Shown here piece by piece: positions 2,890 through 27,083 of a stretch of DNA of 32,591 nucleotides (positions within the stretch are counted from its first letter, which is position 1; each line of letters opens with the position of its first letter). The notes below the pieces were generated by a model. The model did no database searches. It was not told the DNA's origin and was given only the letters and a program-made list of their open reading frames with translations. Both the position numbers and the translations under genes were made by a program. This DNA comes from Candidatus Woesearchaeota archaeon (GTDB taxonomy: Archaea > Nanobdellota > Nanobdellia > SCGC-AAA011-G17 > GW2011-AR20). The DNA is taken from assembly GCA_018302465.1 (NCBI GenBank), contig JAGVZQ010000011.1:1-32591 (forward strand). Direction: 5' to 3'.

Positions 2890-2927
2890 TAAGATTTATA
2901 AACCAAATTTTTAATCACCTTTATAGC

Positions 2928-3023
2928 GCGCCGGTAGTACAGTGGCTAGTATCTCGGCCTTCCAAGCCGATGACCTGGGTAATCAGGTTATCTGATTCAG
3001 GAATTCAAATCCCAGCCGGCGCA
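2928..3023 (+). tRNA. tRNA-Gly(TCC) with a 24-nt intron (2980-3003) between positions 53/54
   Basis: Acceptor GCGCCGG/CCGGCGC+A; anticodon arm TCGGC-cTTCCaa-GCCGA; T-stem CTGGG (2975-2979)/CCCAG (3011-3015) interrupted by TAATCAGGTTATCTGATTCAGGAA; bulge-helix-bulge foldable. Confidence 0.9.
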
Positions 3024-9472: not shown

Positions 9473-9587
9473 GCGGGGATGCCGGAGCGGTCAAACGGGA
9501 CAGAAATCAACAATTGTCCAACCTCAAGAACGCTCTAAGAAAGCTGTTGGCTTAGTGCCTTCGTAGGTTCGAATCCTACTCCCCGCA
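9473..9587 (+). tRNA. tRNA-Leu(CAA) with two introns: 9504-9521 (18 nt, 30/31) and 9529-9541 (13 nt, 37/38)
   Basis: Acceptor GCGGGGA/TCCCCGC+A; T-arm GTAGG-TTCGAAT-CCTAC; long variable arm TGGCTTAGTGCCTTC; spliced anticodon arm ACAGC-CTCAAGA-GCTGT. Confidence 0.85.
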
Positions 9588-14325: not shown

Positions 14326-14400
14326 GCCCGGGTAGCTCAGCTTGGATAGAGCGAAGCACTCCTAATGCTTAGGCCGAGGGTTCGAATCCCTTCTCGGGCG
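14326..14400 (+). tRNA. tRNA-Arg(CCT), no intron
   Basis: Acceptor GCCCGGG/CTCGGGC; anticodon arm AAGCA-ctCCTaa-TGCTT; T-arm GAGGG-TTCGAAT-CCCTT. Confidence 0.95.
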
Positions 14401-25765: not shown

Positions 25766-25882
25766 ATGTCTAAATTAAAAACTATGAAAATAAGAGAGGA
25801 GGTTCATAAAAAATTAATGGCACTAGGTAAAAAAGGGGAAAGTTTTTCTGATATTATTGAAAGATTAATTAAGAATGGATAA
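25766..25882 (+). CDS. Ribbon-helix-helix, VapB/DUF217 antitoxin-like (38 aa) MSKLKTMKIREEVHKKLMALGKKGESFSDIIERLIKNG
   Basis: KTMKIREEVHKKLxxLGKKGESFSDIIERLI; overlaps the endonuclease ATG by 8 nt (ATGGATAA). Confidence 0.75.
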   Translation: MSKLKTMKIREEVHKKLMALGKKGESFSDIIERLIKNG

Positions 25883-27083
25883 AATAAATTTATTAGAATT
25901 GATAGATGATAATTGGTATGTTGATATAGATAAAAATATATTAAACAAATTAATAGAAAAATCAAAAGAAAAACTAGGAAGTCTACGAGCGGTATCAGAG
26001 TATTTTAAAATTAATATTTCTACAATATCTAGATGGCAAGGAAAAGTAAAAAACAAAAATACGAAACCAAGTTATAAAAATATAAAAAAATTAGCAGAAT
26101 TAGGTAATACTCCTATAGATAAAGACATTACAGGGATTAAGCTAAATAGCGGGCATAATTTTCTAAGCTTAACCTCATTAAAGTTAAGCCAAGAATTAAT
26201 AAGAAGTGTAGCATTTATTATAGGGGATGGAGATATAGGTAAAAGAAGAGTAAGATTTGCTAACAGTAACAAATTAGCAATAAAAAGTATTTTATCTGAT
26301 ATATCTAAAATTTTTAATTTAAAAAATCCATGGATAAAGCTCACATATCCAAGAAATTCTAAAAAATCTAAAATAATAGAATCAGTAAAGGAGTGGGAAA
26401 CGTATTTAGGTTATAAAATTAACGGGGTATATGAAAAACATAATACAAAAATAAGAGGAAAGCCATTCAAATCAAAAAAAGAATATGTAGAAGTATCATT
26501 CCATTCATCAACCCTATCAGAAATAATAATAAGAATTTTACCAATTTTAAGAAAAGAAATTTTGCTTAATAAATCATTATCAATCGCCTACTTACAAGGA
26601 ATCTATGCTGCAGAAGGAAGTATAACTAGCAGAGAAAAAAATAAGCTTAGAGTTATACAACTAAATATGAAAGATAAAAATGAAATAATTTATATAAAAA
26701 AAGTTTTAAATTTACTTAATATAAGAAATTCTGGAGAAAGATTTGATTTAGGAAATAATGCTTGGTATATCAATATAACGGGAAGAAAAGAAATAGAAAC
26801 ATGTCTTGATATGGATATTTTCAAGATAAATTCTGAAAGAAAAATAAAGTTAGAAAAAGTAATAAATAATTATGAGAGATATCAAGTCACACCAGTTAAA
26901 AATAAAGAAAGATTTTTACAAATTACAAGCATACTAAATGATGGAACTTTTAACTCCCTACAAGTGTCCAATGCTTTAAATATGTCTTTAATAAGAACAC
27001 AAGTATTGCTAAAAAAAGGCTTTGACAAAGGAAAATGGAATAGAATCTGGAATGGAAGTGAATTTATATATGAAAAAGATTGA
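25875..27083 (+). CDS. LAGLIDADG-family homing endonuclease with flanking HTH-like segments
   Basis: Two LAGLIDADG-like helices: LIRSVAFIIGDGDI and LSIAYLQGIYAAEGSI. Confidence 0.85.
   Translation: MDKINLLELIDDNWYVDIDKNILNKLIEKSKEKLGSLRAVSEYFKINISTISRWQGKVKNKNTKPSYKNIKKLAELGNTPIDKDITGIKLNSGHNFLSLTSLKLSQELIRSVAFIIGDGDIGKRRVRFANSNKLAIKSILSDISKIFNLKNPWIKLTYPRNSKKSKIIESVKEWETYLGYKINGVYEKHNTKIRGKPFKSKKEYVEVSFHSSTLSEIIIRILPILRKEILLNKSLSIAYLQGIYAAEGSITSREKNKLRVIQLNMKDKNEIIYIKKVLNLLNIRNSGERFDLGNNAWYINITGRKEIETCLDMDIFKINSERKIKLEKVINNYERYQVTPVKNKERFLQITSILNDGTFNSLQVSNALNMSLIRTQVLLKKGFDKGKWNRIWNGSEFIYEKD

Follow-up and report, generated by a model that had tools for sequence, protein, structure and literature searches.

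A predicted T-arm intron in a tRNA-Gly(TCC) gene of a Candidatus Woesearchaeota archaeon and the single alpha4-like splicing endonuclease of its host

Introduction

The window analysed here, a stretch of 32,591 nucleotides from the genome of a Candidatus Woesearchaeota archaeon (G000), carries a tRNA-Gly(TCC) gene whose T-arm is interrupted by 24 nt. Is this insert an intron that is removed from the precursor and, if so, what kind of enzyme would remove it? Non-canonical bulge-helix-bulge (BHB) sites are found in the T-arm, D-arm and V-arm of tRNAs from intron-rich archaea. Efficient removal of relaxed BHB motifs has been ascribed to splicing endonucleases of the (alpha-beta)2 and epsilon2 types only (PMC6379350, PMC4033280). 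The clade studied here is assigned to Ca. Woesearchaeota by the relatives of its splicing endonuclease, EndA.

Results

The tRNA-Gly(TCC) gene and its surroundings

The Rfam tRNA model (RF00005) recognizes a 96-nt pre-tRNA-Gly(TCC) gene on the forward strand (2928-3023; 50.1 bits, E 4.7e-8), with the anticodon TCC at 2961-2963. It places an insertion in the T-arm, in agreement with an initial annotation of this DNA that had claimed a 24-nt intron at 53/54 and suggested a covariance-model scan as a check. The gene divides into a 5′ exon (2928-2979, tRNA positions 1-53), the intron at 53/54 (2980-3003, TAATCAGGTTATCTGATTCAGGAA) and a 3′ exon (3004-3023, positions 54-73) that ends on the discriminator base A, CCA not being encoded. 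The boundary is ambiguous by one T (2980 or 3004), such that 2981-3004 could equally be the intron, with an identical product. Excision of 2980-3003 leaves a 72-nt tRNA with every stem paired and a T-arm reading CTGGG-TTCAAAT-CCCAG, to the letter what symmetric cleavage had been predicted to yield, and the spliced cloverleaf has one of the best scores of the genome in our splice solver (31.4). ARAGORN made no call at this locus, as expected from the fact that its intron mode handles anticodon-loop introns only. A TATA-box-like element, TTTATAAA, was read from the sequence at 2895-2902 (forward strand), with its centre roughly 30 nt ahead of the gene. It is also present upstream of the homologous genes at loci L069 and L070, and we infer that it is the promoter. 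On the other side, an aspartoacylase/AstE-like ORF (PF24827; 3005-3715, reverse strand) converges on the tRNA gene, sharing 19 nt with its 3′ exon.

The forward strand of the window also holds an intronless tRNA-Arg(CCT) (14326-14400; ARAGORN/Rfam and splice solver), which served as a control, and a tRNA-Leu(CAA) (9473-9587; Rfam, 38.7 bits, and splice solver) with two introns that would be handled by the same splicing system, at 9504-9521 (30/31, 18 nt) and 9529-9541 (37/38, 13 nt). A free-standing LAGLIDADG_3 ORF of 402 aa near the suf genes (25875-27083, forward strand) is possibly a homing endonuclease.

The insert is bordered by a strict bulge-helix-bulge

The exon-intron borders have the two 3-nt bulges and the 4-bp helix of archaeal BHB introns, all on the forward strand. 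The outer helix pairs TGA (2971-2973, tRNA positions 45-47) with TCA (3005-3007, positions 55-57), and the central helix pairs the exonic CCTG (2974-2977, positions 48-51) with CAGG of the intron (2998-3001). The 5′ bulge, GG^T (2978-2980), would be cut after 2979 and the 3′ bulge, AA^T (3002-3004), after 3003; between them, the inner helix AATCAG/CTGATT (2981-2986/2992-2997) closes a GTTAT loop, the whole hairpin spanning 2981-2997. Each helix, bulge and loop named in the initial annotation is thus in place. With 4 central, 6-7 inner and 3 outer base pairs, the motif is of the strict hBHBh' form, defined by inner and outer helices of at least 3 bp each around the central 4 bp.

Chance is a poor explanation for this structure. 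Not one of 200,000 shuffles of the 24 intron letters gave both a central 4-bp helix and an inner helix of the observed length. Because the candidate list of the splice solver favours BHBs, we added a register test in which the intron limits were chosen solely so as to give the best spliced cloverleaf. It was applied to 30 single-intron tRNAs drawn from five genomes. The 4-bp central helix proved to be in register in 28 of them, compared with 2.0 expected from shuffled introns. One point against splicing by this route is that the unconstrained minimum-energy local fold of the precursor is another hairpin, GATGACCTGG/TCAGGTTATC (-14.8 vs. -9.1 kcal/mol for the BHB). However, the homologous introns of two relatives (G001 and G053) both form the BHB and neither forms this hairpin; we therefore treat it as accidental and reject it as a functional structure, in spite of its strength in G000.

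Distribution of the intron and of its insertion site

The tRNA-Gly(TCC) gene of G001, a genome of the same genus, has a 24-nt intron at 53/54 (L115) with identical stems and the loop TTAAT instead of GTTAT. In G053, from another family of the same order, the homologous intron (L124) is 21 nt long and its inner helix is AACAG/CTGTT. About 20 further genomes of the order, three of them from the same family, have a gene of 71-72 nt that lacks the intron and shows the mature layout of the spliced tRNA, while in G008, G041 and others it is the D-arm that carries an intron; the splice solver gave no good solution for the Gly genes of G101 and G035. Since the relatives are mostly intronless or carry a D-arm intron, the 53/54 intron is a lineage-specific gain, and the site was either struck at least twice or transferred between lineages.

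Sixteen of the 23 full-length tRNA genes identified in G000 with the Rfam tRNA model and the splice solver contain introns, 21 in all, a minimum count in that tRNAs below the covariance-model threshold are missing. This corresponds to 0.91 introns per tRNA gene, compared with 0.84 in the Thermoproteales and 0.21 in archaea overall (PMC8450103). Eleven of the 21 introns are at 37/38 and ten elsewhere: at 30/31 in Lys(CTT), Arg(GCG), Ser(CGA), Leu(AAG), Leu(CAA) and Ile(GAT), at 33/34 in Val(TAC), at 35/36 in Arg(TCG), and at 53/54 in Gly(TCC) and Ile(GAT). The tRNA-Ile(GAT) gene (L028, C27:5204-5325) has both a 26-nt intron at 30/31 and a 21-nt intron at 53/54. Only the Gly(TCC) intron has a strict BHB (both helices of at least 3 bp and a full centre); all 20 others are relaxed. 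At 37/38, the anticodon stem provides a strong outer helix and the inner helix is nearly absent, while in most introns at other sites the inner helix is the stronger one and the outer helix is weak. The same mixture was seen in two single-contig relatives, G003 and G018, where 53/54 introns occur in Lys(CTT) and Ala(GGC), respectively. A tRNA-Gln(TTG) gene of G053 (L130, C24:50286-50409) combines a 37/38 intron with a 33-nt T-loop intron at 59/60. Literature available without subscription, searched for tRNA introns in Woesearchaeota and Pacearchaeota and for noncanonical introns in DPANN, gave no report of the tRNA introns described here.

The splice solver was written after ARAGORN, in its intron mode, had given wrong anticodons for several multi-intron genes; it left three loci poorly resolved (L093 in G003, L108 in G018 and L117 in G001). 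That ARAGORN missed or mis-typed many such intron-bearing tRNA genes is a warning for annotation. We also observed that a tRNA-Leu with anticodon AAG, and hence A34, recurs in the order (L022 in G000, L110 in G001, L090 in G003, L107 in G018 and L129 in G053), a further A34 tRNA being Pro(AGG) in G003 (L089). Archaea are held to be without A34 tRNAs. A TadA-like deaminase (PF14437) was undetected in G000, G001 and the closed genome G018.

Across the order, 53/54 introns recur in tRNAs for Gly, Ile, Lys, Ala and Trp; the site divides the conserved T-arm core, GG^TTCRA. Splitting this core would remove an attachment site for integrases, and the intron might have been selected as a shield: mobile elements usually attach at tRNA termini, and it has been proposed that the gain of an intron blocks their integration (PMC3293823, citing an idea of Randau and Söll). 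Although the reuse of 53/54 fits this proposal, introns at 30/31 are commoner than those at 53/54 in G000, and we consider it a tentative and rather unlikely account, concerned with why the intron is there and not with how it is removed.

The host encodes a single, alpha4-like EndA

G000 has one EndA gene (on C20), encoding a protein of 188 aa with PF02778 in its N-terminal and PF01974 in its C-terminal part. Residues Y124, H134 and K165, assigned as the catalytic Tyr-His-Lys triad by alignment to 1A79 and 4fz2, are invariant in a 21-sequence alignment. An EndA match was found in 57 of the 61 genomes searched and was a single gene in 56 of these 57; the genome with two matches, G043, has 6% contamination. 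A single gene of about 180 aa with both domains and the triad is the hallmark of the alpha4 type. The epsilon2 enzyme of ARMAN, in contrast, is a three-unit fusion of about 390 aa, and the ASL residues of ARMAN-2 are absent from the G000 protein in an alignment to 4fz2. Crenarchaeal CSL enzymes have an extra loop beside the active site with a conserved Lys; in a CSL comparison made with M. jannaschii only, G000 EndA has no extra loop, including at the CSL site, and the loop next to it carries Lys52, which is almost invariant. By sequence, the enzyme appears to be alpha4-like and not of the broad-specificity crenarchaeal or ARMAN type, and it presumably forms an alpha4 homotetramer.

The initial annotation had held that non-canonical introns require endonucleases of broad specificity, known in some Crenarchaeota and ARMAN-type DPANN. 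The DPANN host stands, but typing of the enzyme as one 188-aa EndA lacking both ASL and a detectable beta subunit does not bear out an ARMAN or crenarchaeal type. Nor does the Gly(TCC) intron need broad specificity, because its BHB is strict and such specificity has been linked to relaxed motifs and not to intron position (PMC6379350).

Could a second subunit have been overlooked, the enzyme at work being a heteromeric (alpha-beta)2 endonuclease or another of broad specificity? Relaxed motifs are abundant; the EndA sequence, while matching M. jannaschii 1A79 best among PDB entries, closely resembles the catalytic subunit of N. equitans (3iey_A) as well, and its C-terminal Trp, invariant in the clade, aligns with that of ARMAN-2 and N. 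equitans. However, three kinds of search of G000 and of closed or near-closed relatives (PF01974, a clade profile to E = 10 and the NCBIfam beta-subunit model) detected no beta subunit, each of them, the beta-subunit model included, matching only the single EndA gene, and this gene retains its own N-terminal domain. An overlooked subunit is accordingly improbable, and we retain the single alpha4-like EndA as the candidate enzyme.

RtcB, archease and insertions in rtcB

G000 also has one RtcB gene, with an archease gene adjoining, such that the EndA and RNA ligase genes expected of the host of a BHB intron are both encoded. The rtcB gene itself (L223, C1:3621-4965) has its frame broken within MPDGH-GYGFPIGG. 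Excising 31 nt with a BHB gives MPDGHWGYGFPIGG, a motif equal to that of the uninterrupted gene of G001. BHB-like insertions of 28-33 nt at MPDxH-x-GYGFP and/or GFD-INCG interrupt rtcB in about 13 of the order's genomes (G000, G003, G007, G013, G014, G021, G031, G044, G052, G053, G083, G092 and G100; loci L223, L231, L232, L233, L267 and L269-L276), with weaker BHB fits at the second motif of G014 and in G053 and G083, and their removal restores the catalytic motifs. If these introns are real, the production of RtcB would require splicing by RtcB itself, and the need to splice G000 rtcB counts as a second point against the proposed EndA/RtcB pathway.

The rtcB gene of G013 (L233, C1:498800-500900) has, in addition, a large in-frame LAGLIDADG-like insertion ending ...FIVSN|CGVRI, apparently an intein. 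It lies at GFDIN|CG, the site of the short introns in other genomes. Similarly long rtcB frames, of about 880-1010 aa, occur in many genomes.

tRNA-Gly(TCC) as the only apparent reader of GGA

A second intact tRNA-Gly(TCC), which the initial annotation had named as grounds for calling this gene a pseudogene, was not found in G000, an assembly of 30 contigs and 97.7% completeness whose missing part could hold one. Another Gly-like match, on C30, reads as tRNA-Gly(GCC). That locus (L211, C30:19300-19560) has a D-arm insertion and an acceptor 5′ strand, AAATTGG where GCGATGG is expected, that mismatches the 3′ strand; an acceptor-stem intron, a split tRNA or an assembly fault are possible. GGA accounts for 119 of 240 Gly codons in ten ORFs of the window. 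Because tRNA-Gly(TCC) is apparently the only reader of GGA in G000 and GGA makes up half of the counted Gly codons, its splicing should be essential. That the insert is instead left in place, in a pseudogene or a tRNA with an enlarged T-arm, is highly unlikely: the insert is able to form an extended hairpin and its splicing is read here from DNA, but the exon layout is that of the intronless orthologues, the EndA and RtcB genes are present, and the conservation of the BHB through a changed loop (G001) and a different inner helix (G053), together with the lack of another gene for so frequent a codon, leads us to reject the pseudogene.

Discussion

The Gly(TCC) intron is almost certainly real, and is almost certainly excised by EndA with its exons ligated by RtcB. 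We have high confidence in the full sequence of events that we propose, in which transcription, cleavage, ligation and the oligomeric state of the enzyme are deduced from sequence. The gene would be transcribed as a 96-nt pre-tRNA in which CAGG of the intron is paired with bases 48-51 of the exon. Three of these four bases later belong to the T-stem. Because bases 48-51 are sequestered, the T-arm of the precursor would be unable to fold and the BHB would be displayed instead. The single EndA, presumably as an alpha4 homotetramer, would cut after G53 and after the last A of the intron, in the two 3-nt bulges. RtcB and its partner archease would then join G53 to T54 to restore CTGGG-TTCAAAT-CCCAG, and the spliced tRNA would decode GGA as its apparent sole reader.

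A strict intron of this kind would suit an alpha4 enzyme. The conflict with the rule of endonuclease-intron co-evolution lies in the lineage and not in the Gly(TCC) intron, since the other 20 introns of G000 are relaxed and closed relatives with a single EndA are alike; it is these introns and the rtcB insertions that challenge the rule. We lean slightly towards the view that the one-gene, alpha4-type EndA of Ca. Woesearchaeota is broadly specific in spite of apparently having neither a beta subunit nor a CSL/ASL loop, letting BHB introns, strict as well as relaxed, reach many sites in tRNAs (53/54, 30/31, 33/34, 35/36 and the D-arm) and also mRNA. If true, this would violate the published rule, by which alpha4 enzymes are paired with canonical motifs alone. 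The setting outweighs the intron itself: this is a lineage, uncultured and with small genomes, that combines a single EndA gene with a Thermoproteales-like tRNA-intron density and mostly relaxed motifs at many positions, and in which the rule can be tested directly with one 188-aa protein and its own panel of substrates.

T-arm introns are already a known kind, and the Gly(TCC) intron extends the phenomenon to the Ca. Woesearchaeota lineage, where the host splicing system may depart from known types. Thermoproteales and other intron-rich archaea share with G000 the BHB, short introns and sites outside 37/38, including the T-arm, as well as several introns per gene and a high density (0.84 per gene in the Thermoproteales and 21 introns in 23 genes here; PMC8450103); T-arm introns are also found in C. 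subterraneum (PMC3293823). However, (alpha-beta)2 enzymes have been described in the crenarchaeal hosts, whereas G000 has one EndA gene. ARMAN-2, with its epsilon2 enzyme, and N. equitans, with its (alpha-beta)2 enzyme, are likewise DPANN hosts with relaxed and non-canonical introns, and the N. equitans alpha subunit is close in sequence to G000 EndA. G000 differs from both in having no fusion protein, detectable beta subunit or ASL, and no demonstrated split tRNA. In mRNA, the rtcB insertions follow the same BHB principle as the pre-mRNA introns of cbf5, as of 2009 the only experimentally confirmed archaeal case (PMC2738675), but they interrupt another gene, that of the splicing ligase itself, in a lineage with no detected heteromeric EndA. 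The M. jannaschii-type alpha4 system resembles the Gly(TCC) intron and its host in the 3-4-3 geometry with inner and outer helices and in an EndA of about 180 aa; its strict introns lie at 37/38, whereas that of tRNA-Gly(TCC) lies at 53/54.
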